From contig PMZT01000262.1 in assembly GCA_003170085.1 (NCBI GenBank), positions 1 to 51,436 of the forward strand: a stretch of 51,436 bases of DNA, written 5' to 3'. The stretch is from Planctomycetia bacterium. Its GTDB lineage: Bacteria; Planctomycetota; Phycisphaerae; FEN-1346. A model generated the notes under the pieces. That model ran no database searches and was not told the DNA's origin. It saw only the letters and a program-made list of their open reading frames with translations. Shown in pieces: positions 13,372 through 51,436 of this stretch (position 1 is the first letter of the stretch; each line of letters starts with the position of its first letter). The translations under genes and the position numbers were made by a program.

Positions 13372-13488
13372 TGACGCTGCGCGGTCGCCGCGGCGACCGC
13401 GTTTCAGTCGCGCGACGCGGCCGCCGGGAACGCGGCGGGTCGGGAGACCCGCCGCGCATAGGGCTACGGGCACGCGTGAATTGCTCTA
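13372..13488. repeat. Family 2 palindromic element, copy lacking its left end
   Basis: Shares about 115 bp with the full element at 37771-37918: TGACGCTGCGCGGTC, then a central palindrome, TTTCAGTCGCGCGACG, a GCGGCGGGTCGGGAGACCCG hairpin, GGGCTACGGGCACGCG, and the right terminal repeat GTGAATTGCTCTA. The left 17-bp terminal repeat is missing. The central palindrome differs from the other copy (GCGGTCGCCG/CGGCGACCGC here) but is still perfect. It lies between the divergent btuB and btuF promoters. Confidence 0.85.
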
Positions 13489-37304: not shown

Positions 37305-37774
37305 GCGGCGCCTGGACCGTTGAGACGCACGGCCCCGACGAGACGCTCGACGTGGGCCGTCGCCTCGGCCGCGCCGCCCGCCCGGGCAACGTGTTGGCGC
37401 TCCTGGGCGACCTCGGCAGCGGCAAGACCGTCCTTGCCAAAGGCGTCGCCGAGGGCCTGGGTGCCGCGAGCGCGCGCGACGTCATCAGCCCCACGTTCGT
37501 CCTCTGCAAGGAGTACCTGGACGGGCGGATTCCGTTCTACCACTTCGACGCGTATCGCCTGCGGAGCGCCGCCGACATGGAGGCGATCGGCTCGGCCGAG
37601 ATCCTGGAGGGCGACGGCCTCTCGGCCGTCGAGTGGGCCGACCGCACGCCCGAGGCCCTGCCGCCCGACCACCTGGAGATCCGCTTCGAGGTCACCGGCC
37701 CCACCGCCCGCCGGCTGACGTTTGCCTCGCGCGGCCCGCAGTCGGAGCGGTTGCTGGCGGCCGTGGCGCCCTAG
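37301..37774 (+). CDS. tsaE: tRNA threonylcarbamoyladenosine biosynthesis ATPase TsaE
   Basis: 157 residues. Works with TsaB/TsaD to make the t6A37 modification. Walker A is GDLGSGKTVLAKGV. SPTFVL, FYHFDAYRL and AVEWADR are family signatures. The start overlaps thiL by ATGA. Its TAG stop (37772-37774) lies inside the left terminal repeat of the palindromic element at 37771-37918, so the last codons may have been trimmed by that insertion; the length is nevertheless normal. Confidence 0.94.
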   Translation: MSGAWTVETHGPDETLDVGRRLGRAARPGNVLALLGDLGSGKTVLAKGVAEGLGAASARDVISPTFVLCKEYLDGRIPFYHFDAYRLRSAADMEAIGSAEILEGDGLSAVEWADRTPEALPPDHLEIRFEVTGPTARRLTFASRGPQSERLLAAVAP

Positions 37775-37918
37775 AGCAATTCACGCGCGGCTGTAGCTGA
37801 CGCTGCGCGGTCCCGGCGCGCCGGGACCGCTTTCAGTCGCGCGACGCGGCCGCCGGGAACGCGGCGGGTCGGGAGACCCGCTGCGCATAGGGCTACGGGC
37901 ACGCGTGAATTGCTCTAG
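37771..37918. mobile_element. 148-bp palindromic element with perfect 17-bp terminal inverted repeats (MITE-like)
   Basis: Ends CTAGAGCAATTCACGCG (37771-37787) and its exact inverse (37902-37918). Inside: a perfect 24-bp palindrome at 37807-37830 (arms GCGGTCCCGGCG), TTTCAGTCGCGCGACG, and GCGGCGGGTC-GGGA-GACCCGCTGCGC. A copy lacking the left end is at 13372-13488. It fills the whole gap between convergent tsaE and the GspE-like gene, and its ends supply the TAG stops of both. Non-coding; it could be a non-autonomous insertion, a bidirectional terminator, or both. Confidence 0.8.
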
Positions 37919-39657
37919 CGCCGGTCGGGGGCTGCCGGGTCGGCCGTATCCATCTCACCGGGGCAACCTTCCAGGGCGGTCATAACTTCGTCGAGCGAGG
38001 TGATGCCCGCGCGGACCTTGTTGATGCCGTCGACCCAGAGCGACGGCAGCCCCGCGGCGCGGAACGCGGCGCGCCACGCCTTGCGGTCGGCCCTGGCCCG
38101 GACGAGGGCCGGCAGGCTGCCCTCCATCGGGATCAGTTCGAACAGGCCGATCCGCCCCAGGAGGCCGGTGCGCGCGCACGAGGCGCAGCCGCGACCCTTG
38201 ATGTACTCGGTCACCGGGCCGAAGACCTCGGCGATGTGGTTCCGCAGGCCCGCCGGCGGCTCGCAGGGCCGGTGGCAGTGCGGGCAAACCGTCCGCACCA
38301 GCCGCTGCGCCAGGATGCCGCGCAGGGCCGACGCCAGTCCTTCGACGGGGGTCTGCGCGGTCACCCGCACAATCGCATCGGCGGCATCGGTCCCGCCGAC
38401 ACGGGCCAGGACCAGGCACCCGTCGAGCGCCGCCTCGACGGCCGTGGCCATGGCGTGGCCGCTCAGTTCGCAATCGAGAATCAGAACGTCGGGCCGCTGC
38501 GCGAGCAGCCGCGCGATGGCCACCGCCGGGTCGGCCAGGCCGCAGGTCGCCAGCGAGAACTGGCTCACGCCGGGCAGATTGAAGTTGATGGTCGTTTCAA
38601 ACGTGCAGATGTTATACCGCACGGGGTCGAGCGCTTGCAGCGTGCTGTAGAGGGTGGTCGAGATGCCGCTCCAGCGCGGCCCGGCCACGAGGACCAGCCC
38701 GCGCATGGGCGTGACGAGGTCGCGGTAGCGGGCCAGCAATCCGAACTCGCAGCCGAGTTTTTCGAGCGGTCGCAGGGCCTCGTCATCGCGTACAATACGC
38801 ACCAGCGTGCGCGGCCCGAACGCGCCGCCGAGCGACGCCATGTGAAGCTGGACCGTGCGGCCCTGGACAAGGAGGCGGGCGCTGCGCTGCACGCCCTGGG
38901 CGGCCGGCGTCCGGTTGGGGAACCCCATCATCTCGTCAAACGCGCTCAGCAGGCCGGTGGCCAGTCGGACCGGCGGCCGCATGACCACGTGCAACACGTC
39001 GTCGATGCTGAAGCGGATGCGAAGCACCTTCTCATCGGGCTCCATGTGAATGGCCGTGGCGCGCGACCGCACGGCTTCGTGCACCAGAAGGCTCGCCACT
39101 TTTTCGGGCGGCCAGTCGCCGTAGACGGAGTCGTAATCGTCGGAGAGGATCAGCTCGCCGCCGAGTTGAGGCTCGGCCACGGCGCCCTCGGCCGACGGCC
39201 CTCCCTCGGCGCCGGCGTAGGTGTTCTCGATCATCTGGTAGATATTGTCGGACGTAGCGGTCACGATCTGCACGTGCATGCCGGCCGCGTGCGTCACTTC
39301 GTCCACGAGGAAGAGGTTCGAGGGTTCCGCCACGGCCACGGTCAGGACGTCGCGGACCCGGAACAGCGGCAAGACGCCGTGCTTCTGGATGAAGGCCTCG
39401 GGCAACGTGCCTCGGATCGAGGAATCGACGAGTGACGGCACGAGGCAGGCGAACGGCACACCGTAGGCCTCGGCCACGGCGGCCATGACCCGCTCGCGCG
39501 TGGCATAGCCGAGTTCGACGAGGATCTCGCCGATAAGCCGCTGCTGCTGGCCCCGCTGCTGGGCCGCCAGCGCCACCGTGAGCTGCTCCTGCGTGATCAC
39601 GCCGTGCGCGATCAGGAGGTCGCCCAGTCGGGCCCGAGTTTTGGTTGCCGTGACCAT
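37915..39657 (-). CDS. GspE/PilB-related protein with degenerate Walker A (probable pseudo-ATPase)
   Basis: 580 residues. An N-terminal GspE-N domain (about 8-150: RLGDLLIAHGVITQEQLTVA, IGEILVELGYATRERVMAAV) precedes the T2SS/T4P ATPase fold, recognisable from IHMEPDEKVLRIRFSIDDVL onward. The P-loop reads GPRWSGISTT (326-335) in place of GPTGSGKSTT, so the ATP-binding lysine is Ile332. The Asp box (VEDPIE) reads FETTIN, and the Walker B/His-box region is changed (ILDCELSG; VLARVGGTDAAD). The Cys ribbon (CPHCHRPC, CASC) remains. ATP hydrolysis is unlikely; a signalling or scaffolding role is inferred from the HD-GYP, receiver and STAS genes upstream. A paralogous active ATPase may exist elsewhere. 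Confidence 0.87.
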   Translation of the reverse strand: MVTATKTRARLGDLLIAHGVITQEQLTVALAAQQRGQQQRLIGEILVELGYATRERVMAAVAEAYGVPFACLVPSLVDSSIRGTLPEAFIQKHGVLPLFRVRDVLTVAVAEPSNLFLVDEVTHAAGMHVQIVTATSDNIYQMIENTYAGAEGGPSAEGAVAEPQLGGELILSDDYDSVYGDWPPEKVASLLVHEAVRSRATAIHMEPDEKVLRIRFSIDDVLHVVMRPPVRLATGLLSAFDEMMGFPNRTPAAQGVQRSARLLVQGRTVQLHMASLGGAFGPRTLVRIVRDDEALRPLEKLGCEFGLLARYRDLVTPMRGLVLVAGPRWSGISTTLYSTLQALDPVRYNICTFETTINFNLPGVSQFSLATCGLADPAVAIARLLAQRPDVLILDCELSGHAMATAVEAALDGCLVLARVGGTDAADAIVRVTAQTPVEGLASALRGILAQRLVRTVCPHCHRPCEPPAGLRNHIAEVFGPVTEYIKGRGCASCARTGLLGRIGLFELIPMEGSLPALVRARADRKAWRAAFRAAGLPSLWVDGINKVRAGITSLDEVMTALEGCPGEMDTADPAAPDRR

Positions 39658-39666
39658 CGCCCTGCC

Positions 39667-40002
39667 CTAATTGAAATTTTTGACGGCTTCGTGAACGTTC
39701 TCGAAGACCTCGAATTTCTTGTCGAACCGGACGATCTCGAAGATCTTGCGGCAGTGGCCTCTCAGGCCGGCCACCTTGATGAGCCCGCCCGCCGCTTCCA
39801 CCTGCTCCTGGAACCAGAGCAGCTCTTCAAGGCCCTGGCTGTCCAGAAGTCCGGCCCGCGCGAGGTCGAGGATGAACCACCGGCCGCCGGCCTTGATCTG
39901 GGCCGCGGCAACGCGGCGGAACTCGTCGGCCTCCGCCTTGGTCAGGGCGGGCTCGATCGAGAGCACCGTCATACTTCCATAGGCATCGGCCGTGGTGGGC
40001 AT
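39667..40002 (-). CDS. STAS-domain protein (anti-sigma factor antagonist-like)
   Basis: 111 residues, a single STAS fold: ADEFRRVAAAQIKAGGRWFI, then LDLARAGLLDSQGLEELLWF (the Ser in DSQG sits at the usual phosphorylation site), AAGGLIKVAGLRGHCRKIFE and FEVFENVHEAVKNF. Such proteins switch partners by phosphorylation, but no anti-sigma kinase is seen here. The ATG at 40002 (GAGGAA upstream) is chosen to avoid overlap with the HD-GYP gene; a 17-residue longer form is open. It lies 9 bp before the GspE-like gene. Confidence 0.83.
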   Translation of the reverse strand: MPTTADAYGSMTVLSIEPALTKAEADEFRRVAAAQIKAGGRWFILDLARAGLLDSQGLEELLWFQEQVEAAGGLIKVAGLRGHCRKIFEIVRFDKKFEVFENVHEAVKNFN

Positions 40003-40015
40003 GGCCTGGGCTTCC

Positions 40016-41527
40016 TCAACCAGCGCCGAGGCCGACCGTCGGCCGCTCGGCAAACTCTTTCATCAACTGGGTCATGTCGAGGCTGAGCAGGGCCTCCGCG
40101 GCGCGAACGTCGAACTGGGTGCCGATGCACCGCTCGATTTCCTTCTTCACGTACTCCATCGGCAGCATCGGCCGATACGGCCGGTTGCTCGTCATGGCGT
40201 CAAAGGCGTCGGCAATGCCGACGATGCGGGCCAGCAGCGGGATCTCGTCGCCCTTAAGGCCCGCCGGGTATCCCTTCCCGTCAAGGCGTTCGTGGTGGCT
40301 GAGGACCACGTCGCGGATCGACTCGAGCTTGCGGATCCCCGCCAGGATGCGGTGGCCGACTGTGGGGTGCTGCTTCATGATCCGCCACTCTTCAGCCTCC
40401 AGCTTGCCCTCTTTCCGCAGGATCTGCTCGGGCGTGCCGATCTTGCCGATGTCGTGCAGCAGCCCCGCCAGGTAGATCTGCTCGACCTGCTCGGCGGGCA
40501 GACGCATCTGGATGGCAACGCGGCGGGCCGTGATGGCCACGCGCTCGCTGTGACCGCACGTATAGGGGTCCTTGGCGTCGATGCTCGACACGAGGGACCG
40601 CACGAGGTCCAGCATCAACTCCTGGAGTTCGCGGTACAGCCGGCGGTTCTCGATGACGATGGAGGTGACGTTCGACGTAGAGCGGATGAGCTTGGCGTCG
40701 GGGCTGCCGAACTCCTCGGCCTCGCGGTTGATCGCCGCCAGCGCCCCGCGCCGCCCTTCGCTCAGCTCGATCGGGACCAGGGCCACGCGTTTCATGCCGG
40801 GCGCGAGGCCGGCGAGCGCCGGGTCCTGCTGACAATAGTTGTGGATGACGATGCACGCCTCGCCGGACGCCCCTTCGAGAAGTTGCATCATGATGCGCGG
40901 CAGATCGGCGGCCGGGAACGGCAACTGCCCCGCAACAACCGTTTCCGGCGCCCCTTCTTCGGCCTCGGGCAGGAAGGCCACGGCCGCCTCGGCATCGACG
41001 GTCTCGCGAAGTTCGTTACAGGCGTACTTCAGCAGTTCCGTCACCGGGCGGCTGACGCGAAGGACTTCGCCAAGGTGGTGCAGCAGGCTGATCTCCTCGA
41101 AACTCTGGAGGAGCGTTTCCGACACCGCCTCGCACTCCGTGCGTGCCTCGGTGGTGCACAGGTGGGCGCGCACCGCCTCGGCCACGGCGGCCAGAAGTCG
41201 CCGGCCCAGGTCCGGCCCCTGTTCGCCGGAGACCGGCACCTCGGCGGCAGCCACGAGGACCGTCCGCGACCGCACCCTGATCGGCCACGCGGCACGGACC
41301 CAGCCCGCCGACGCGACAACCTGGTCCTCGCCGGTCTTGAACGCCTCGCCGACCAGTTGCCTCAGGGTTTCGTTGAGCGTCTCAAGGGCCTGCGCAGCAA
41401 CTTCGCCGGCGGCCTGTCCGTCGGGACCGTAGAACGTGACAGCCACGCCGGTCCGCCGGAGCATGTCGGGCGCGAGTCCGGACGGGACCTCGAAGGTCGC
41501 GGCCGGGGTTGCCTGGGTGACGTCCAT
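40016..41527 (-). CDS. GAF/HD-GYP protein (predicted c-di-GMP phosphodiesterase)
   Basis: 503 residues, soluble. About 140 N-terminal residues without a recognised domain, a GAF-like domain (about 145-295), and an HD-GYP domain (about 305-490) with LLHDIGK (H358, D359), MKQHP, LSHHERLDGKGYP (GYP 419-421), GLKGDEIP and ADAFDAM, all metal-site motifs intact. It should degrade cyclic di-GMP near the secretion/pilus machine. The ATG at 41527 follows GAGGGACTGACC. It lies between a receiver (22 bp upstream) and the STAS gene. Confidence 0.92.
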   Translation of the reverse strand: MDVTQATPAATFEVPSGLAPDMLRRTGVAVTFYGPDGQAAGEVAAQALETLNETLRQLVGEAFKTGEDQVVASAGWVRAAWPIRVRSRTVLVAAAEVPVSGEQGPDLGRRLLAAVAEAVRAHLCTTEARTECEAVSETLLQSFEEISLLHHLGEVLRVSRPVTELLKYACNELRETVDAEAAVAFLPEAEEGAPETVVAGQLPFPAADLPRIMMQLLEGASGEACIVIHNYCQQDPALAGLAPGMKRVALVPIELSEGRRGALAAINREAEEFGSPDAKLIRSTSNVTSIVIENRRLYRELQELMLDLVRSLVSSIDAKDPYTCGHSERVAITARRVAIQMRLPAEQVEQIYLAGLLHDIGKIGTPEQILRKEGKLEAEEWRIMKQHPTVGHRILAGIRKLESIRDVVLSHHERLDGKGYPAGLKGDEIPLLARIVGIADAFDAMTSNRPYRPMLPMEYVKKEIERCIGTQFDVRAAEALLSLDMTQLMKEFAERPTVGLGAG

Positions 41528-41549
41528 GGTCAGTCCCTCATCCTCTAAC

Positions 41550-41915
41550 TCAGTTGCCCAGCGCCGCCTGGACCGCGGCCAGGAGTTCGCGCGGGCTGAA
41601 TGGTTTGGTCATGACGCGCTGGATAGGCAGGCCCTCAAGGGCGGTGTCGCCCAGCTCGAAGCCCTTGGCCGTCAGCAGGATCGTCGGAATGGCCTTGTCC
41701 AGCTCGCGAGTGAGGCGCGCACACAGTTCGAGTCCGGTCATGCCCGGCATCTGGAGGTCGGTGATCAGGAAGTCCGGCCGGACGGCCATGGCCTGCTCGT
41801 AGGCCTCCTGGCCGTCGCGCGCGACAACGACCTCCAGGCCGGCGCCACGCAGTTTCATGGCAACGACGTTGGCAATCGGCGCTTCGTCCTCAGCCACCAG
41901 AATTCTTTTCGGCAC
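41550..41915 (-). CDS. Single-domain response regulator
   Basis: 121 residues, a stand-alone CheY-like receiver. The acidic pocket is in VAEDEAP, the phosphoacceptor is Asp53 (LITDLQMPGMTG), Thr is in ILLTAKG, and Lys in MTKPFSP. No output domain, so it must act through a partner, plausibly the adjacent HD-GYP protein or the GspE-like protein. GTG start at 41915 after GGGGTGAG. The probable kinase gene is 141 bp upstream. Confidence 0.93.
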   Translation of the reverse strand: MPKRILVAEDEAPIANVVAMKLRGAGLEVVVARDGQEAYEQAMAVRPDFLITDLQMPGMTGLELCARLTRELDKAIPTILLTAKGFELGDTALEGLPIQRVMTKPFSPRELLAAVQAALGN

Positions 41916-42056
41916 TACTCACCCCTCTGATCCGCGCCACGTCCGTCCGCACCCCCGGCCGACACCGCGATCAACTGTCCCGCCCCCCAACATTTCCCGT
42001 TGCCGTTCACCACAAGCCCTGAACTTCACCCTGCGAACCGTCTTTGCAGGCCGTCT

Positions 42057-43502
42057 TTATCTCACCGCCGGCAGGAGGATCCGGAACGTCGATCCCTTGC
42101 CGACCTGGCTCTCGAGGGTCACTCGCCCGCCGTGAATCACCTCGACCACGTGCTTGACGAGCGGCAGGCCAAGGCCCGTGCCCGGCGCCACCTTGCTCGA
42201 CACGCGCGCCCGGTAGAACTTCTCGAACACCCGCTGCAACTCCTCCGCGGGAATGCCGTAGCCCGAGTCGGTCACTTCGACAACCACCGAGCCGTCTGAG
42301 AGGTAGGTCGAGATGCGCACCTTGCCGCCCTCGGGCGTGTACTTGACCGCGTTCGACACGACGTTGAGCACCGCCTGGTACAACATGTCGCGGTCGCCGT
42401 TGACACGGAAGAAGACCGGCGCCAGGTCGACCTCAAGGCGGATATTCTTCTGGGCGGCCTGCGGCGTCATGACCTCGCCCACGTCGCGGAGGATCTCGGT
42501 CACGGCCAGGTCGGTCTTATTGACCGGGACAAGGCCGGATTCCAGCCGGCTCAGGTTCAGGATGTTCTCGATGAGCCGGTTCAGCCGGTCGGTCTCGGCC
42601 CCGATCGTCTGGAAGAACTCGCGGCACTGGGCCGGCTCGTGAACGTCGCCGTCGAGAAGCATCTCGATGTAGGCCTTGATGCTCGCCAGGGGCGTCTTCA
42701 GCTCGTGCGTGACGTTCGAGACGAAGTCGCTCTTCATCCGGGCGATCTCCTTCTCCTTCGTCACGTCGTGCAGAACCACGACGACGCCGCTCAGGCGGTC
42801 GCGCTTCTTGCCCTCGACCACCGTGTTCAGCACTACACGCCACGCCAGCGACTGGCCGCCGCGATTCTGCACCCACTCGACCGTCCGGTGGGGGATGAAC
42901 AGACCCGTCTCGCGCATCTCGTGCAGGAGCGCCAGGAACGTCTTGTCGGTGATGACCTCGTCCACGGGCTTGCGGACCGCGGCATCGAAGCGGAAGCCGA
43001 AGATGCTCTCGGCGGCGCTGTTCGCCTGGAGCAGATCGCCAAAGGCACCGGTCACCAGCACGCCGTCGCTGATGGCATGGATGACCGACTCGACGTGCCG
43101 CCGCTCGGCCTCCAGCACCTTGATCTGGATCTGCCGCTCCTTGGCGGTGATGTTCGTCTGCTCGATCTCGTCCTTGACGAACGCCAGATACCGGTTAACG
43201 GCGTGGCCGAGGCGGCCCAGAGCGTCGGCCTCATTATCGGCAACGACCAGGCCGAGGGTCCCGCGGCGCACCATGGTCTCCAGGTACTCCGCGACGTGGT
43301 TGATGCGTTCCTTGGGAAGACGGGCCACCAGGAACCCGCCGATGATCCCGAGCACCGCCAGCGCCAGGCCGCAACTCAGCGTCATGGCCATGATGGTCGC
43401 CGACTGATCCGTTTCGCGCAGCGGGGTCATGAGCAGGTGCAGGCCGACCCCTACTCCCAGGAACAACAGAATGACCGCGATGGCGCGACGTAGTTCAATC
43501 AC
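42057..43502 (-). CDS. Membrane PAS-domain sensor histidine kinase
   Basis: 481 residues. Two membrane helices (about 8-25 and 38-60), a HAMP-like/coiled stretch to about 140, a PAS domain (about 141-255, ISDGVLVTGAFGDLLQANSA), a HisKA domain with phosphoacceptor His266 (SNVTHELKTPLASI), and a HATPase_c domain (N box VLNVVSNAVKYTPEGG, G1 DSGYGIP, G2 GTGLGLPLVKH). The layout resembles PhoR/WalK-type kinases. A GTG start at 43502 fits GGAGGT eight bases upstream. Its partner is most likely the receiver at 41550-41915. Confidence 0.93.
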   Translation of the reverse strand: MIELRRAIAVILLFLGVGVGLHLLMTPLRETDQSATIMAMTLSCGLALAVLGIIGGFLVARLPKERINHVAEYLETMVRRGTLGLVVADNEADALGRLGHAVNRYLAFVKDEIEQTNITAKERQIQIKVLEAERRHVESVIHAISDGVLVTGAFGDLLQANSAAESIFGFRFDAAVRKPVDEVITDKTFLALLHEMRETGLFIPHRTVEWVQNRGGQSLAWRVVLNTVVEGKKRDRLSGVVVVLHDVTKEKEIARMKSDFVSNVTHELKTPLASIKAYIEMLLDGDVHEPAQCREFFQTIGAETDRLNRLIENILNLSRLESGLVPVNKTDLAVTEILRDVGEVMTPQAAQKNIRLEVDLAPVFFRVNGDRDMLYQAVLNVVSNAVKYTPEGGKVRISTYLSDGSVVVEVTDSGYGIPAEELQRVFEKFYRARVSSKVAPGTGLGLPLVKHVVEVIHGGRVTLESQVGKGSTFRILLPAVR

Positions 43503-43548
43503 AACCACCGACCTCCGCAGTAACCACCTGACTCCTCCTTGCGCCCCC

Positions 43549-44637
43549 CTACTGCTGGGCTCGCGCCAAGAGCTTTTCAACCGTGGCGCGGCCACTAAAA
43601 TGCTCGTCCTTCATGGCGAGGGTCAGATGCGGCACCGCCTCGCCCTTCTTGCCCGTAACCACCAGCACGTAACCCATCAGGCCGTTGGCCTCGACGTGCT
43701 GCGCGTCGCGCGCCAGCGCTTCGGCCAGGAACTTCTCGGCCGACGCCAGCCGGCCCTCCATCAGATCGCACTTGGCCTGCCCCACAAGCCCGTCGATACC
43801 GGCGCGCCCGGCACGAACCAGCCCCTGATAAATGGAGCGGGCCTCTTTCGGCCGGTTCAAGGCCAGCAGGCACTCGGCCCGCATGCGCAGCACCCAGCCC
43901 GTGGCAAAGGCCGGCTGGCACTCGGCCAGTTCCGCCAGCTTCGGCTCGGCCTCGGCGTACGCGCCACTGCAGAAGAGGGCCGTGGCCAGACGCTCCGTGA
44001 GCTCCGGCCGGTTCGGCTCCAGGCGTATGGCGATGCGGTAACACCCCACCGCCTCGCCGTCACGTTTGAGGGCCGAGAGGACGTCGCCGCGCGCCGCGTA
44101 GATTTCCCAGCGGCCGGGCATCTGGGTCGCGGCCTCGTCGAGCGCCTGGGCGGCGATGTCGGCCTTGCCCTGCGCCACGAGGAGTTCCACGGCGGCCAGA
44201 ACGAACTTCGGCTGCTTCGGGTCGAGCCGCGCAGCCTCGGCGTATTCCTCGAAGGCGATGTCTCCGTGACCGAGCGTCTGTTCGATCGTGCCGAGCACGT
44301 ACCGCGCCTCGGCCGATTTCGGGTCGATGGCCTTGGCGTTCTCGGCGTAGGTGCGGGCCATGTCGAGATCGCCCTTCTCGGTCGACAGGCGCGCCGCCAG
44401 GACGTACATCGGGGCGTACGGGGCGCCGTTGCGGATGCATTCCTCAATGTGTTCGCGTGCGCGGCCGAATTCGCCGCGCTGGAAACATCCCTCGCCCAGC
44501 CGGGTCGCCATCTCGGCCCGCGTGGTATTCCACCGCTTGGTCGCCTCGGCCCGCGCCACGCTTTTTGTGCAACCGACCGTAAGAAGAACGAGCGCGAACG
44601 CCGAAAGGCCCAGGAGCATCCGAAGGGAGTTATTCAT
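43549..44637 (-). CDS. TPR-repeat lipoprotein
   Basis: 362 residues. Lipoprotein signal with lipobox LTVGC (Cys23), then tandem tetratricopeptide repeats throughout (RLGEGCFQRGEFGRAREHIE, ARYVLGTIEQTLGHGDIAFE, AANGL-type helices to the end). In type IV pilus systems a TPR lipoprotein (PilF/PilW/Tgl) helps the secretin assemble in the outer membrane; position right after the secretin supports that role here. The ATG at 44637 overlaps the secretin stop by 8 bp, with GGAGGAG inside the secretin gene. Confidence 0.87.
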   Translation of the reverse strand: MNNSLRMLLGLSAFALVLLTVGCTKSVARAEATKRWNTTRAEMATRLGEGCFQRGEFGRAREHIEECIRNGAPYAPMYVLAARLSTEKGDLDMARTYAENAKAIDPKSAEARYVLGTIEQTLGHGDIAFEEYAEAARLDPKQPKFVLAAVELLVAQGKADIAAQALDEAATQMPGRWEIYAARGDVLSALKRDGEAVGCYRIAIRLEPNRPELTERLATALFCSGAYAEAEPKLAELAECQPAFATGWVLRMRAECLLALNRPKEARSIYQGLVRAGRAGIDGLVGQAKCDLMEGRLASAEKFLAEALARDAQHVEANGLMGYVLVVTGKKGEAVPHLTLAMKDEHFSGRATVEKLLARAQQ

Positions 44638-46636
44638 GTTTCGGCTCCTCCGCCTTGGGCGCCGCCGGTGCGGCCGGCGCGGGTGCGTTGTTCGCCTTCT
44701 CCTCGGCGTCCTGCCGTTTGGCTTCGTCCATGTCGCGCAGCCTGTCGTTGATGCTGTCCCAGATGGTCCAATTAGGCGGCTCCACCGGCTCGCCCCGCTT
44801 CTCGGAAAGGATCTCGTCCTTCAGGCGGATGCCCTTGAGGTCGTTCGGGCTGATGTTCAGCGCCAGTTGCACGTTCCACCAGGCCTGGTCGAGGTCCTTG
44901 GGCGAGCGCGTTTCCTGGAAGCGCTGCCACGCCTTGTCGGCCTCCTGCATGTGGAATGAGGTCAGGCGCTCGCCGCTGAAGCAGGCGAATCCTTCGCGGA
45001 GGCCCAGCAGGCGGCGCTTGGCGTCGTCCCATGCGGCCTTGCCGAGTTCGTTGGCCGCATCATCGTTGTCGATGATGTGCGGCGTCAGCAGGACGATGAC
45101 CTCGCTACGTATGGTGGAATCCCCATTGCTGCGGAAGAGCCACCCCAGGATGGGGATGTTGCCCAGCCCAGGCACCTGCGACCGGGTGACCGACGTGTTT
45201 TCGTCAAACAGGCCGCCGATGACGATCGTGTGCCCGTCCTTGACCATCACGTTAGCGGTGCACTCCGTGGTCTTCTCGCCCGGCAGGGGGGCCGAAGTCG
45301 TCCCGTACTGCACGTAGCTCGAGACCTTGGGATGGATCTCAAGGCGGACGTAGCCATCATCGCTGATGAACGGCCGGAAGATCAGCTCGGTGCCGACGTC
45401 CAGAAAGCTCACCGTCTGGACGGCCGTCGTCTCGGTGTTCGTCGTCGTCACGAACGGAACGCGCTGGCCAATGATGACGTTGGCCCGCTGCTTGTTGAGC
45501 GCCAGGACTTTCGGGTTCGCCAGGATGACGGTGTCGGTCACCAATTCGAGCGCGTTGATGAAGACGGCCACGTTGTTGGTCAGGACGCCGATGTTCAGCC
45601 CCTGCCCGGGCACAACACCCGTCTGCGTGTTGATGTGTGCCCAGTCGGTGAAGTTCTTCGCCACCGTCGTGGACGAGGCGTTGGCGTTGGTCGTGGGGTT
45701 GGTCACCGGGGTGGCGCTGGTCGTCGTCAGGTCGCGGAAATCGAGGCCGGCGAGCGCGTTGAAGTTCACGCCGAGGCTCGTCGTGTCAGTGAGCTGGACC
45801 TGAAGAATCACGGCTTCCACGAGGACCTGGCGCGGCCGCGCGTCCATCTGCTTCAGGATCTTGCGAATCTGCTCGAGGTTCTCCGGGAAGTCCCGCACGA
45901 TAACGTAGTCCTGCAGGCCGAAGGCATTGGCCCCCGTGCTGCCGCCCGTCCCGGAAGGAATGCCCTTCTCGGTCGCCGTATTGGAGGACGTGGTGGCCAG
46001 CTTCGAGAGGACCGGCGTGATGATCTTGAGGGCGTCGTCGGCGTTCAGGTAGTTCAGCGGGAATACCTCGGTCACCAGGCGCCCCTCGTCCTGCTTGATC
46101 GCGCTGCCTTCCTCGGCGGTGTACACGTAGATCGCCCCCTGCTCGCGCGACCACTTGAGGCCGCTGGCGCGGCAGATCGCGTCGAGCACCTGGTCGATCG
46201 TCACGTTGTACAGGTCGGCCGTGACTTTGCCCTTGGTGCCGCGCGACGCGATGATGTTCAACTGGTACTTGCGCGACAGGAGTTCGAGGATATTGGCGAT
46301 ATCCTCGTTCTTCATGTGGAGGCTTTCGATCTTGCCGTCGGCCGCCATCGGGCTCAGCGTCACTTCGCCCGGGTTGGCGGTGGCCGGCGTTTCGTCAGGC
46401 TCCGGCGCCGGTGGAGGCTTGACCAAGGCCGCGGGTGGCGCCGGCGCCAGCGCCGCAGGCAACGGCTTTGCAGGCCCCGCCTTGGGGGCTGTCTTGGCCG
46501 GCGGCGTTCCCGCCGGCGGCGTTTGGGCCAGCGACGCAGTGGCCGTCAGTGCCACCGCCGCTCCGATAACAGCGTATAGGGCGGCCATGGCGATGGCCGC
46601 GAGGCGTCGACGGCGATGATGGTGTCTCACTCTCAC
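44630..46636 (-). CDS. Type II secretion / type IV pilus secretin (GspD/PilQ family)
   Basis: 668 residues. Signal peptide (to about 37, ALTATASLAQ), Pro/Ala-rich linker, an N-domain (IESLHMKNEDIANILELLSR; TADLYNVTIDQVLDAICRAS), a second short N-domain (VFPLNYLNADDALKIITPVL), and the secretin core (QVLVEAVILQVQLTDT; VPGLGNIPILGWLFRS). About 120 residues follow the core, longer than in many secretins, ending in an Ala/Pro/Lys-rich tail. It forms the outer-membrane gate. GTG start at 46636 after GGAGGGA gives a positively charged signal peptide. PilQ versus GspD cannot be settled from sequence. Confidence 0.92.
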   Translation of the reverse strand: MRVRHHHRRRRLAAIAMAALYAVIGAAVALTATASLAQTPPAGTPPAKTAPKAGPAKPLPAALAPAPPAALVKPPPAPEPDETPATANPGEVTLSPMAADGKIESLHMKNEDIANILELLSRKYQLNIIASRGTKGKVTADLYNVTIDQVLDAICRASGLKWSREQGAIYVYTAEEGSAIKQDEGRLVTEVFPLNYLNADDALKIITPVLSKLATTSSNTATEKGIPSGTGGSTGANAFGLQDYVIVRDFPENLEQIRKILKQMDARPRQVLVEAVILQVQLTDTTSLGVNFNALAGLDFRDLTTTSATPVTNPTTNANASSTTVAKNFTDWAHINTQTGVVPGQGLNIGVLTNNVAVFINALELVTDTVILANPKVLALNKQRANVIIGQRVPFVTTTNTETTAVQTVSFLDVGTELIFRPFISDDGYVRLEIHPKVSSYVQYGTTSAPLPGEKTTECTANVMVKDGHTIVIGGLFDENTSVTRSQVPGLGNIPILGWLFRSNGDSTIRSEVIVLLTPHIIDNDDAANELGKAAWDDAKRRLLGLREGFACFSGERLTSFHMQEADKAWQRFQETRSPKDLDQAWWNVQLALNISPNDLKGIRLKDEILSEKRGEPVEPPNWTIWDSINDRLRDMDEAKRQDAEEKANNAPAPAAPAAPKAEEPKHE

Positions 46637-46664
46637 GTCATCCCTCCCCACTGTAGTGACCCCC

Positions 46665-47360
46665 TCAGTCCATCCGCAGCAGACAGATGGCACCTGCCTG
46701 TTGCAGCTTGACCTTGCCTTCCTGGATCTCAACGATCTCCAGTCCGGCAACCGTGTCCCCTGCTCTGTAATTCTTCCCGTTGATCACAGCCCACCGCTCT
46801 CCAGAGGGAGCAATCAACGTAATCTCGAGTTTGAGGCCCTTCGCGACGTTCAGAATGGCCGTGGCGCTCATCGCGCCGGCCTGCGCCGCGGGCGCTGCCG
46901 GAGCAGGCGCTGCCGGAGCAGGCAACTTCTCCGCGACCGCGGGCGGCTCAGCCGCGGGGGCCGCCGGGTGCGCCGCCGCCTGCGTCGCCTCGACCGCGTG
47001 AGATTCACTTGTCGTACCCAGCAAAAACGGGTTGCGGCGGAGCGGCGCCGGCGCGGCGTCGGGCGTATCGCCGCAGAGTTTCTCGACATCGGCCGCAGCC
47101 GCCCGAATTCGCCCTGTGTCCATCCCACCCGCCAGGCTGATGGCGGCACAGTCGCCGCCGGGCGAGGTCCACGGCTGAACCAGCGCCAGGGCCCACGCCG
47201 AGAGGCCCGCCAGAACGAGGCACATCGTCAGCACCACCTGGACCCACCTTCCACGCGTGGTGGCCCAACGGCCGCGCGGGCGCGCCGCCAGCCACGCCTG
47301 CACGCCGGCAAACCACTGAGCCTTCGGCTCGCAAGTTGCCCGGGTTTCCAGTTCCGTCAT
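46665..47360 (-). CDS. PilP/GspC-like inner-membrane protein
   Basis: 231 residues. One membrane helix (about 40-61), a periplasmic linker rich in Ala/Pro, and a small C-terminal beta domain (WAVINGKNYRAGDTVAGLEI, VEIQEGKVKLQQAG) resembling the PilP/GspC homology region that contacts the secretin N-domain. Its ATG overlaps the PilO-like stop by ATGA and it is followed by the secretin, matching the pilMNOPQ order. Sequence support for PilP itself is modest; context is stronger. Confidence 0.75.
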   Translation of the reverse strand: MTELETRATCEPKAQWFAGVQAWLAARPRGRWATTRGRWVQVVLTMCLVLAGLSAWALALVQPWTSPGGDCAAISLAGGMDTGRIRAAAADVEKLCGDTPDAAPAPLRRNPFLLGTTSESHAVEATQAAAHPAAPAAEPPAVAEKLPAPAAPAPAAPAAQAGAMSATAILNVAKGLKLEITLIAPSGERWAVINGKNYRAGDTVAGLEIVEIQEGKVKLQQAGAICLLRMD

Positions 47361-47977
47361 CCTTGCACCGCCCCCGCCTTCGCCTGCGAGGCGGTCTCCG
47401 TCTTCTCCACCGCGGGCGCCACACCGGGCAGGTAGTACACGAGGAGTTCGGCCTCGGCAACCACCGACCCGGCCTCGTCGGCCCGCTGGATATGAACCCG
47501 CCGGAACCGATTCAACCGATCCAGCGCCTCGACACGGGCCAGGCACCGATGGACGCCCTCGTACGGACCGGTCAGCCGCAGCCGCACCGGCACCGCCGCC
47601 ATTTTTCCGGACGTCTCGGGCGCCGACTGCTGGATCTCATGGGCCACCCCCGGCTCGGCCTGCGCGCAACCGGTTACGGCCTGGAGGAAGTCCGCCAGGC
47701 GTGGCTCGTCGGGCAGCCGGCGTTCCAGTTGCGACTGGACCTTCCGCAGCCCCGCCAGGCGGGCCGACACGTAGATGCCCTCGTGACTGGTCTTGACCTT
47801 CTGGCTGACCAGGTCGCGCTGGCGCGTGACGGCCGTTCCCAGGTCGGTCAGCTCGAGCTGCTTCGGCCACAGGATGAGCAGGCAGAAGCTGCCCACCATG
47901 ACTGCCGCGACCAGCAGGATGAGGAACTGCTGCCGGTCAACCGCCAGGCGTTTACGCGCACCCACGGGAGAAGCCAC
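47357..47977 (-). CDS. pilO: PilO/GspM-like protein
   Basis: 206 residues. A short cytoplasmic start, one helix (about 18-37, FLILLVAAVMVGSFCLLILW), a coiled segment (LTDLGTAVTRQRDLVSQKVK), then a ferredoxin-like periplasmic domain (VPVRLRLTGPYEGVHRCLAR). It pairs with PilN to link cytoplasmic PilM to the secretin. GTG start at 47977 after AAGGAG; longer in-frame starts overlap the PilN-like gene. Assigned mostly from fold pattern and gene order. Confidence 0.78.
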   Translation of the reverse strand: MASPVGARKRLAVDRQQFLILLVAAVMVGSFCLLILWPKQLELTDLGTAVTRQRDLVSQKVKTSHEGIYVSARLAGLRKVQSQLERRLPDEPRLADFLQAVTGCAQAEPGVAHEIQQSAPETSGKMAAVPVRLRLTGPYEGVHRCLARVEALDRLNRFRRVHIQRADEAGSVVAEAELLVYYLPGVAPAVEKTETASQAKAGAVQG

Positions 47978-47981
47978 GCTC

Positions 47982-48557
47982 TTACTCCTTCGGCAAAGCG
48001 GTCGCCGACACGCTCGCCTCGATGACAAAAGACCGGCGTCCGACATCGGCGCTCGTTACCGGCTTCGATTCCACCAGGGTCACCCGTTCAAACAGGGGCA
48101 ACTCCTCGATCAGGCTCAGGACCCGCATGACCGCCGCCTCGTTCTGAGCCGTCCCCACGACCCGCAGTGTCGCGTGGCTACGGCCCGTAGGCTCCGGCTG
48201 ATCCAGGGTGACCTCGTCGAGCACCGCGCCGGCCGGCAACAACTCGGCCAGGCTCGTCATGACCTTGCTCGCCGTGAGCTGCGGCCATAGCGCCTGGAGA
48301 CACTCGATGCGGCGGTTGTAGGACTCGGCCTCGGCCCGCTGCGTGCGAACGCGGATGACGTCGGCGTCAACGGCGCTGCCGGTGCCCTGGAGGGCCGCCA
48401 GTTCAGCCTTGGCATCGCGCACCCACGCGCCCATTTGCAGGCTCCAAAGGACCATGGCCAGGCCCAGCGCCAGCAGCAGCCACGAACGAATGAAGCCGAT
48501 GCGCCGCTGGAAGCGGGCTCGGATGTAATCCGCCGGCAGGAATTCGAGTTCACGCAC
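47982..48557 (-). CDS. pilN: PilN/GspL-C-like protein
   Basis: 191 residues. The N-terminus MRELEFLPADYIRARFQRR resembles the short cytoplasmic INLLP motif by which PilN binds PilM. One helix (about 24-42) and a periplasmic coiled/ferredoxin-like domain (LAELLPAGAVLDEVTLDQPE; LRVVGTAQNEAAVMRVLSLI) follow. GTG at 48557 has GGGAGG eight bases upstream; a GTG six codons earlier touches the PilM stop and has a poorer site. Confidence 0.8.
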   Translation of the reverse strand: MRELEFLPADYIRARFQRRIGFIRSWLLLALGLAMVLWSLQMGAWVRDAKAELAALQGTGSAVDADVIRVRTQRAEAESYNRRIECLQALWPQLTASKVMTSLAELLPAGAVLDEVTLDQPEPTGRSHATLRVVGTAQNEAAVMRVLSLIEELPLFERVTLVESKPVTSADVGRRSFVIEASVSATALPKE

Positions 48558-48575
48558 AGCTTCGACCTCCCGCAC

Positions 48576-49697
48576 TCAGGCCCCCATCCCAACCGCCAAC
48601 TCCTCGGCCAGGTGGAACCCTTTCAGGCTCAGCCCAAACGCCGTTGTCCACTCGCACAACGAGCCGCGCCGGTCCAGGATCGGCCCCAGATGGTCCGTCC
48701 GCACGCCTCGCAGAGGGTCGATGGCCTGGCCCTCGATGCCCAGGCGGTCGGCCAGCAACGCCGGAATATCCTGGTTGTGCGATTCGCCGCCCGTGAACCC
48801 GATGCTCTCGGGCTTCGGCCCACGAAACGTCACGCTGTAGTACCGAAGGCACAGCGTGATCTCGTTCGCTAGGTCCTCCAGATGGGGCCGGATGGCATCG
48901 GCCACCGCCCGGCACACACGGTCCGTCTCTTCGCTTTCGGTGGCGTCCTTGTCCGCCGACGTGCCCCGCGCCCGGCGGCCCAAGCGCCGCCGGAGGGCCT
49001 CGGCCTCGGCCGGCGCCACCTCCAGGCATTCGGCCACGGCCCGGTTGAACAACGCCCCGCCGATCGGGATCGTCTTGATGAACACGATGTCGCGTCCGCG
49101 GCCGATCACCACCGTGGTATGCGCCCCGATATCGGCCAGCACGGTCACCGCCGCATCGTCTTCGCGGCGGCGCAGGAACCGCTCGTACCCGCGGAAGATC
49201 GCGCACGGCTCGGCGTCGAGGCTCACCAGGTCCAGGCCCGCTTCACAGGCCAGTTGGACCTGGGCGTCGACCTCCGCCCGCGGCGCCGCCAGCAGGATGA
49301 CCTCGTCGAGCGCCTGCTCGCCCTGGCGGACTTCGCCGGCCCGCAGGTGCTGGATGACGGCCGTCGCCGTATCGAACGGGAACTTGTTCTGCGCTTCCCA
49401 GTTGACCGCCGTGGCCAGCTCCTCATCGGCCATCTTCGGCAACCGGATGTTGCGGATCGCCAACTGCTCCGATGCCAGCGCCACCACGGCTTCGCGGCCG
49501 CGGAAATGATGCTCGCGAACCATCCGCCGGATCGCCTCGACGATCACCTCGCGGCGGCGCTTCGCATCGGCCTTCACTTCCTGCGGAATGACAAACTTCG
49601 TTGCGTCCAGCACCGACAGGTCCCGCCCATGGCCGCATACTTGCAGCAGGCGGACGGTTGTCGTCCCGATATCCAGCCCAATCGGTAGCGGCTTCAC
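48576..49697 (-). CDS. pilM: PilM, actin-like type IV pilus assembly ATPase
   Basis: 373 residues, FtsA/actin fold. The first phosphate loop is GLDIGTTTVRLLQV. LASEQLAIRNIRLPKMADEE and NWEAQNKFPFDTATA match PilM. The second phosphate loop region is VLADIGAHTTVVIGRGRDIV, and the adenosine-side motif GFTGGESHNQDIPALLADRL. It sits in the cytoplasm and recruits PilN. GTG at 49697 follows GGAGGAGAG; the extension upstream overlaps the pseudopilin end. It leads pilMNOP-secretin. Confidence 0.92.
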   Translation of the reverse strand: MKPLPIGLDIGTTTVRLLQVCGHGRDLSVLDATKFVIPQEVKADAKRRREVIVEAIRRMVREHHFRGREAVVALASEQLAIRNIRLPKMADEELATAVNWEAQNKFPFDTATAVIQHLRAGEVRQGEQALDEVILLAAPRAEVDAQVQLACEAGLDLVSLDAEPCAIFRGYERFLRRREDDAAVTVLADIGAHTTVVIGRGRDIVFIKTIPIGGALFNRAVAECLEVAPAEAEALRRRLGRRARGTSADKDATESEETDRVCRAVADAIRPHLEDLANEITLCLRYYSVTFRGPKPESIGFTGGESHNQDIPALLADRLGIEGQAIDPLRGVRTDHLGPILDRRGSLCEWTTAFGLSLKGFHLAEELAVGMGA

Positions 49698-49717
49698 GCC
49701 GACTCTCCTCCGGCCAC

Positions 49718-50236
49718 TCAGGGAACCGTGGTGACCGCGATATTGCCCGTCAGCGCCTCGACCGACACCTGCTTTTTGCACCGGCCCGATTGCAACGTCA
49801 CGCTCCAGGCCGCCGCGGGGTCACCCAGCGGCTGAAACGTCACGTACTGCGTGCCGCTGCTGTTCACGTCGGTCACCAGCACGGCGTTCATGCCATTCAG
49901 GCTCGCCAGGAACACCTCGTAGTTCTGCTTGGCATAAATGGGGTGCGGCACCGGCGTGGTCGCGGCATACGACGTGGCGGCGTAGTTCACGGCCACCTTG
50001 TAGGACTTCTTGTCGGGGCTGAAGAGCAGCGTGTACGGCTTCTGCGTCGTCACGGCCAGGCTGCGTACCACGTCGAGATCGGACTGCACCACCCGGGCGG
50101 CGCTGATCACCTGGGAATCCTGCGCCGAGCCGATCCGCGGAATCACGATCGCCGCGGAAATCGCCATGACGAGAACCACCAGCAGGATCTCGACCAGCGT
50201 AAACGCCGCCCTGCTCGTTACCGGATATGTACGCAT
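49718..50236 (-). CDS. Type II secretion / type IV pilin-like pseudopilin
   Basis: 172 residues. A class III prepilin signal: short basic leader MRTYPVTSRAA, then FTLVEILLVVLVMAISAAIV. Glu at +5 is kept, but the -1 residue is Ala, not the usual Gly. The C-terminal ~130 residues resemble GspH-type minor pseudopilins (VVQSDLDVVRSLAVTTQKPY; TLQSGRCKKQVSVEALTGNI). It would be processed by a PilD-type peptidase and join the pseudopilus tip. It lies 20 bp upstream of pilM. Confidence 0.88.
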   Translation of the reverse strand: MRTYPVTSRAAFTLVEILLVVLVMAISAAIVIPRIGSAQDSQVISAARVVQSDLDVVRSLAVTTQKPYTLLFSPDKKSYKVAVNYAATSYAATTPVPHPIYAKQNYEVFLASLNGMNAVLVTDVNSSGTQYVTFQPLGDPAAAWSVTLQSGRCKKQVSVEALTGNIAVTTVP

Positions 50237-50962: not shown

Positions 50963-51436
50963 TTAAAGAGCGTTGTAATTCGTGCCGTCCGGCGTCTTGT
51001 TGATGGCCGAGGTCGTCAGGTCAGCCCTGAACTCGCCCGTGCCGCTGTTGAAGTACCAGCCGGCATCCGCCGCACAGGAGAACGTCGCCGTCGGATCCGT
51101 CACCACGCGCACCGTCGCGATGCTCGACATCGGGTTCGCCGGAATCGCCTGGAGGTACGGTCCAAGCGTGTGCGTCGCATCGGGCGTCGCCACGGCCGTG
51201 CCGGCCGAGTTCGTGTACTGCGTCATCTGCGTGACGAAGTTCGTCGGATACGCCTCGTTATCATGCTGCATCTTGTACAGCAGGAGTTGGCTGCGCATCG
51301 TCTGGAGGTTCGTCTTCAGGTTCGAGACCCGCGCTTGCGTGGACGCTTGCGTGAACTGCGGAATCACGATCGCGGCCAGGATGCCCAGAATGATCACGAC
51401 GATCAGAATTTCGACCAACGTAAAGCCCTTTTTCGC
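50963..51436 (-). CDS. Major pseudopilin / type IV pilin-like protein (GspG type), 5' end outside window
   Basis: The frame is open to the right edge, so the leader start is missing. The visible N-terminus is AKKGFTLVEILIVVIILGIL, a canonical prepilin cleavage site (G|FTLVE) with Glu at +5. The next ~40 residues (AAIVIPQFTQASTQARVSNL) form the GspG/PilA N-terminal helix. The C-terminal domain (~110 residues) includes YLQAIPANPMSS and AGWYFNSGTGEF, typical of GspG-like pseudopilins. It is the first gene seen of the pilus/secretion cluster and is set apart by a 391-bp gap with hairpins. Confidence 0.9.
   Translation of the reverse strand, partial: AKKGFTLVEILIVVIILGILAAIVIPQFTQASTQARVSNLKTNLQTMRSQLLLYKMQHDNEAYPTNFVTQMTQYTNSAGTAVATPDATHTLGPYLQAIPANPMSSIATVRVVTDPTATFSCAADAGWYFNSGTGEFRADLTTSAINKTPDGTNYNAL

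Follow-up and report, generated by a model that had tools for sequence, protein, structure and literature searches.

Why would a type IV pilus operon keep, as its final gene, an extension motor from which the catalytic residues have disappeared? The question is raised by a gene on the minus strand of the window, by which we mean the whole stretch of 51,436 nucleotides that was analysed; the organisms hosting this gene are uncultured planctomycetes represented by MAGs. A sequence-only reading had assigned the product, here called pseudo-PilB, to the fold of the secretion and pilus motors, and this assignment is borne out. The protein matches the Pfam families T2SSE (E=9.6e-56) and MshEN (E=4.9e-15), its closest PDB sequence is that of Geobacter PilB (5tsg, E=9e-73), and its AlphaFold model, based on a 37-row alignment, has a mean pLDDT of 85.5 (superseding a run on an 8-sequence alignment, which gave 64.9) and reaches a TM score of 0.90, normalised to the target, against chain E of PilB structure 5tsh. 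The protein has the PilB architecture, i.e. an MshEN domain, an N2D domain and a RecA-like CTD with a tetra-Cys zinc motif. Its score against the PilB model TIGR02538 is 258.9 bits, under the cut-off of 675.65, and the intact orthologues of the sister family (f2) also fall slightly under that cut-off (634.8 and 640.4). Against the TfpB model NF053534 it scores 217.8 bits, the cut-off being 850, and the intact active site expected of that family is likewise missing.

The gene and its neighbours in the window are the following:

37915..39657, minus strand: pseudo-PilB (580 aa), an orthologue of the motor for pilus extension with a dead active site
39667..40026, minus strand: STAS domain protein with a DSQGL motif
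40016..41527, minus strand: HD-GYP protein, predicted c-di-GMP phosphodiesterase, with HDIGK and HHERLDGKGYP intact
41550..41915, minus strand: receiver-only response regulator
42057..43595, minus strand: PAS-HisKA-HATPase sensor kinase
43549..44637, minus strand: TPR protein
44630..46750, minus strand: PilQ/GspD-like secretin, whose true start may be internal
46665..47435, minus strand: PilP/GspB-like protein (Pfam T2SSB, barely over the cut-off)
47357..48046, minus strand: PilO
47982..48575, minus strand: PilN
48576..49781, minus strand: PilM-like ATPase, so called on the basis of its sequence and the gene order
49718..50236, minus strand: FimT/GspH-like minor pilin with an FTLVEI signal, named from sequence and gene order
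50963..51436, minus strand: type IV pilin with a GFTLVEI signal, named from sequence and gene order, reaching the contig edge

With pseudo-PilB as its final gene, this run forms a type IV pilus operon ordered pilin-FimT-PilM-N-O-P-Q-TPR-HK-receiver-HD-GYP-STAS-PilB. The earlier description of a gene encoded with receiver, HD-GYP and STAS proteins rather than with PilC and PilT holds for the immediate locus, but misses that the same minus-strand run continues upstream with PilM, PilN, PilO, PilP, PilQ and the pilins. The absence of PilC and PilT beside pseudo-PilB is due to their loss from the operon's end. Both genes are gone from the locus in the family to which the protein belongs (f1): no PilC follows the dead gene in the three genomes where the contig continues beyond it (that of the window, G001 and G002).

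Two further observations concern the surroundings of the gene. The kinase-receiver-HD-GYP-STAS block stands right before PilB in the pilus operon of most families of the class that were examined (L048-L054, L060-L062; window 39667-43595), and the PilB of the second pilus cluster (G000:C255) likewise has a STAS gene before it; a link between STAS and PilB seems worth testing. On the other side, a 148-bp palindromic element (window 37772-37919) separates the pseudo-PilB gene from tsaE, which converges on it, and provides the TAG stops of both genes. Its single-strand fold has a z of -8, several near-full-length and dozens of partial copies occur across the same genome (one at window 13372-13488), and it looks like a MITE or REP-type repeat.

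The extent of the catalytic loss was assessed by a residue audit in which the GmPilB numbering of PMC5424180 was transferred to pseudo-PilB by alignment. The relevant segments are:

38653..38685, minus strand: dead Walker A, AGPRWSGISTT, residues 325-335 (TGPTGSGKSTT in active relatives)
38581..38607, minus strand: dead Asp box, CTFETTINF, residues 351-359 (TVEDPxEF or near in active relatives)
38470..38493, minus strand: altered Walker B, PDVLILDC, residues 389-396, with Gly replaced by Asp in 6/6 genera and the catalytic Glu gone
38386..38421, minus strand: dead His box, GCLVLARVGGTD, residues 413-424
38176..38286, minus strand: tetra-Cys zinc ribbon, kept (C458, C461, C491, C494)

The Walker A Lys is Ile (I332), as the sequence-only reading had stated, and is V, L or I across the six genera of the family, while it is Lys in 24/24 active orthologues. 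That reading was also right that the Asp box has no acidic residues, since T355 replaces the Asp and N358 the Glu (E357 in GmPilB), both being gone in 6/6 genera and present in 24/24 active orthologues, and that the His box is unrecognisable, C414 and G421 replacing both His in all six. The catalytic Glu (E395 in GmPilB; here C396) is absent in 6/6 genera, and one Arg finger (R271 in GmPilB; here H272) is H or Q throughout. All told, eight catalytic or nucleotide-sensing positions are lost in every one of the six genera and kept in all 24 orthologues at the same gene position. The substitution of a conserved Gly by Trp, also pointed out earlier, is present here, but it is private to this genome, the other five having E or D. 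What stayed is likewise shared: the second Arg finger (R286 in GmPilB; R287 here) is present in 6/6 genera, a Ser/Thr still follows the lost Walker A Lys, and the zinc cysteines occur in 5/5 family orthologues that include the region, in agreement with the claim that the N-terminal domain, which has its MshEN match, and the Cys ribbon remain. In addition, the dead clade has acquired invariant residues of its own, namely R290, R328 within the P-loop, and D395 in place of the Walker B Gly.

From the residues lost we infer that pseudo-PilB would neither bind nor hydrolyse ATP in the manner of PilB. ATP hydrolysis through an unusual site might be read into the regained classical Walker B Asp (D395, 6/6) and the Ser/Thr that follows the position of the Lys, but we consider it extremely improbable: nothing is left of the Lys, the Asp-box Glu that binds Mg, the catalytic Glu and the two His, one Arg finger is missing as well, and engineered loss of the Lys alone strongly lowers ATP binding by PilB (PMC5544727).

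The order offers eight available genomes, six from family f1, each of a different genus, and two from the sister family f2. All six f1 genomes contain a pseudo-PilB orthologue (60-63% identity), in an identical gene order wherever the locus is assembled; in G003 and G004 the gene is split over contigs. At the same position, f2 and other families of the class have a gene whose P-loop, GPTGSGKS/T/N, is intact (24/24). These active orthologues also sit after the HK-RR-HD-GYP-STAS block (at least one block member went undetected in a few), and they are mostly followed by PilC, often with PilT in between. The sequence-only reading would have taken such intact relatives as a sign of a local mutation or a sequencing error. 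They do exist, in other families, but that conclusion fails, as the loss of the P-loop is common to all members of f1. An error of sequencing, assembly or binning might be suspected since the window derives from a MAG, and its probability is negligible: the same loss, in open frames, is found in six independent MAGs of different genera, and this agreement also rules out a local mutation. In a phylum-wide profile search for additional members of the dead clade, only the window's copy has a dead P-loop among the top 20 loci examined. A contig scan for further relatives matched only known family members, all Planctomycetota MAGs.

A tree of 65 T2SSE proteins unites the six dead ones in a single clade (100/100), nested within that of the operon PilBs (100/97), and the gene position likewise marks descent from the PilB of the PilMNOPQ operon. 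Gene order and tree together rule out a degenerate paralogue unrelated to the pilus. The tree gives no resolution as to the exact sister of the dead clade among the operon PilBs. The stem of the dead clade measures 1.62 changes per site against 0.24-0.36 for its tips. In our reading, PilB turned into a pseudo-motor in the common ancestor of f1, in a single burst of rapid change that was followed by ordinary rates.

Could the gene simply be decaying, having become dispensable once a second motor, PilB2, had taken over? The loss of catalysis and of the adjoining PilC and PilT, together with the long stem branch, would fit such a course of events. Nonetheless, the dead PilBs are under purifying selection: Nei-Gojobori estimates of dN/dS for pairs of the six lie at 0.24-0.40, and at 0.18-0.42 when only the ATPase core is considered, figures of about 0.2-0.4 that are rough owing to GC-biased third positions and are far under 1. 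None of the six genera has internal stops in the gene (two copies are cut by contig ends), and identity within the family is 64% for the dead PilB, against 61% for PilQ, 67% for PilM and 54% for HD-GYP among its neighbours. As R328 and D395 are new and invariant in 6/6, and as the N-terminal part of MshEN is conserved beyond the active paralogues (see below), we disfavour decay as very improbable; the dN/dS values and the novel invariant residues rule out a decaying pseudogene. The sequence-only reading had proposed that the motor fold was reused as a regulator, and what stands of this is reuse without catalysis, as indicated by the loss in 6/6 genera, the purifying selection and the intact predicted fold.

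The distribution of conservation along the protein indicates which part is being retained. Two segments are relevant here:

39208..39657, minus strand: N-terminal MshEN (N1) domain, residues 1-150 (Pfam MshEN and NCBIfam NF053729)
39559..39630, minus strand: c-di-GMP motif I, 24 residues, RLGDLLIAHGVITQEQLTVALAAQ, complete when compared with the motif in PMC5013675

The best conserved segment among the dead orthologues of the family is formed by residues 8-62, which lie in MshEN. In the active operon orthologues the core, with 72% identity, is among the best conserved regions and the first 55 residues of MshEN reach 51%; in the dead clade this relationship is reversed, with 74% for the N-terminal part of MshEN and 63% for the core. 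The ratio of the two identities is 1.18 in the dead clade and 0.71 +/- 0.035 in active orthologues, the latter baseline being taken from random sets of six, of which 0/5000 reached the dead-clade value. Two groups of active paralogues (four sequences each, mostly from f1) have ratios of 0.71 and 0.65, with 58-61% identity in the N-terminal part of MshEN and 86-88% in the core. The N-terminal part of MshEN is held more tightly in the dead PilB than in its active paralogues and therefore is no mere leftover.

The motif by which MshEN domains bind c-di-GMP consists of two 24-residue repeats (PMC5013675). Motif I is complete in 4/5 family orthologues that include the region, the fifth having substitutions that include G to D, and in none of these five does motif II have the consensus Arg and Gln, which are also absent from motif II of the active f2 relatives. 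Against the c-di-GMP domain model NF053729, with a cut-off of 38, two dead PilBs score 49.5 and 45.8, and active f2 orthologues score higher (58.2 and 65.9). A link of pseudo-PilB with c-di-GMP is plausible because the operon has an intact HD-GYP gene, whose signature residues are retained in all six genera, the NF053729 scores exceed the cut-off, and conservation has moved to the N-terminal part of MshEN. Binding of c-di-GMP by pseudo-PilB is possible; the gaps in motif II and the domain scores below those of the f2 relatives speak against it, and docking to PilM alone could also be the source of the conservation.

If pseudo-PilB does not drive pilus extension, the power would have to come from elsewhere. 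Genomes of the family encode, away from this operon, a PilM-PilN-PilO-PilB2-PilT-PilC cluster whose motor is intact. PilB2 was found in G000 (in fragments, C136 and C86), G002, G004 and G005, which are the more complete f1 genomes, and was not found in the other two, which are 74-75% complete. No secretin was found on the contigs of up to 115 kb that carry PilM-PilN-PilO-PilB-PilT-PilC (G002:C227, G005:C31 and G007:C110; L093, L096 and L095), and these secretin-less PilB2 clusters may make use of the one encoded in the other operon. Judging from gene content, PilB2 and its PilC would serve the secretin and pilins of the pseudo-PilB operon. We also considered that the operon PilC had been relocated within the family, and rejected this since, among the PilC copies compared, not one clusters with the operon PilC of f2; the closest is the copy linked to PilB2. 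As to the order of events, genome G007 of the sister family has PilB2 as well as an intact operon PilB, and G006 has an intact operon PilB and no close match to PilB2, which suggests that PilB2 arrived first and freed the operon copy.

The presence of two motors brings up the main rival view, namely that a dead PilB ring, or one mixed with PilB2, would sit at the pilus base either as an adaptor that couples the active motor to the platform or as a dominant brake, as the sequence-only reading had suggested, that blocks it. The predicted fold matches PilB chains that form hexamers, and the Arg finger R287 is present. In other bacteria, PilU can drive retraction with a PilT devoid of ATPase activity, an active motor is blocked when its dead counterpart is over-expressed (PMC6821130), and two extension motors cooperate in Acinetobacter (PMC8213720). 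We nevertheless regard this view as rather unlikely, as it is the ring-forming ATPase core that fell in conservation (63% versus 86-88% in the active paralogue groups), and mixed rings are less likely because pseudo-PilB is only about 32% identical to PilB2. Another view is that pseudo-PilB acts off the pilus altogether and regulates another pathway, e.g. exopolysaccharide or a STAS partner switch. PilB of M. xanthus controls EPS without a pilus (PMC5544727), and STAS and HD-GYP genes adjoin pseudo-PilB; against this, pseudo-PilB is always the final gene of the PilMNOPQ-pilin operon where the locus is assembled far enough, and such an exclusive role away from the pilus is improbable.

We therefore favour, with a probability of roughly 60%, the reading that pseudo-PilB would serve the pilus machine as a subunit for docking and signalling, working via its N-terminal domain, with the motor work outsourced. 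In this arrangement the protein would stay permanently nucleotide-free within the machine, and the power for extension would be supplied by the intact PilB2-PilT-PilC set encoded elsewhere. Its working part would now mainly be the N-terminal domain, which would dock to the PilM ring and/or read c-di-GMP, and it would act in concert with the products of the operon's HD-GYP, STAS and two-component genes. A more specific version, which we put forward only tentatively, is that pseudo-PilB would be a natural nucleotide-free PilB, a motor turned into a c-di-GMP-reading signalling or gating subunit and fixed in the whole family once the second motor cassette had taken over, which would make it the counterpart in evolution of the M. 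xanthus PilB mutant K327A.

The same genomes contain a second GspE/PilB-like family without a P-loop, which occurs in all eight genomes of the order and whose homologues extend to many further families of the class (G000:C105:14633-15997, i.e. L055:9607-10998, plus strand; L116, L117, L118, L120, L122, L123, L125; L163-L184). It has no MshEN match, and the one copy read in this respect (L120) has hydrophobic N-terminal segments. The P-loop Lys is replaced in every readable copy (GPKDSGLTTT, GPRGSGVTTT, GPPRSGRTVS), and the gene mostly adjoins a PilT-like gene, whose loop is intact where readable. In the tree this family is a clade separate from the operon pseudo-PilBs, and hence catalysis is predicted to have been lost independently, more than once, in the T2SSE proteins of this class.

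The PilB fold and family are already known, and among the open-licence papers searched we found no description of a natural PilB without a P-loop or of a family-wide pseudo-PilB. Direct regulatory inputs into PilB have been reported in M. xanthus only (review PMC11656802), and the case for ATP-independent signalling by PilB comes chiefly from laboratory mutants of a single species. A family-wide loss of catalysis under retained selection provides an independent natural experiment, which shows the part of PilB that matters without motor work, namely the MshEN N-domain, and these proteins permit binding tests without competing effects of ATP.

Compared with known systems, pseudo-PilB resembles PilB (TIGR02538; Geobacter 5tsg/5tsh) in its domain order MshEN-N2D-CTD, zinc ribbon, fold, operon position and descent; it differs in that the active-site residues are gone, it scores 259 versus 635-640 in its sisters, and PilC and PilT do not adjoin it. 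It shares with MshE of V. cholerae (PMC5013675) the family of the N-terminal domain, a complete motif I and an NF053729 score over the cut-off, but motif II is degenerate in pseudo-PilB (no Arg, no Gln). Acinetobacter baylyi, with TfpB and PilB, also has two PilB-type proteins per pilus system, one of them away from pilC (PMC8213720); there both are functional, whereas here one is dead and scores 218 against the NF053534 cut-off of 850. ATPase-dead PilT of V. cholerae still lets PilU retract pili (PMC6821130), and thus offers a case of a dead motor that is still needed while a second, active motor provides the power; that PilT is an engineered retraction motor, whereas pseudo-PilB derives from an extension motor and no PilU-type partner is known here. 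A functional parallel may be found in the K327A and M388I variants of M. xanthus PilB, which have the MshEN N-domain in common with pseudo-PilB (PMC5544727). The K327A protein binds ATP abnormally, has no ATPase activity and does not support pilus assembly, yet it drives EPS signalling more strongly than the wild type, and the nucleotide-free form of PilB has been proposed as the signalling conformation (PMC5544727). These variants are laboratory mutants of an active motor, whereas the loss in pseudo-PilB is natural, extends over eight positions and is fixed in an entire family.
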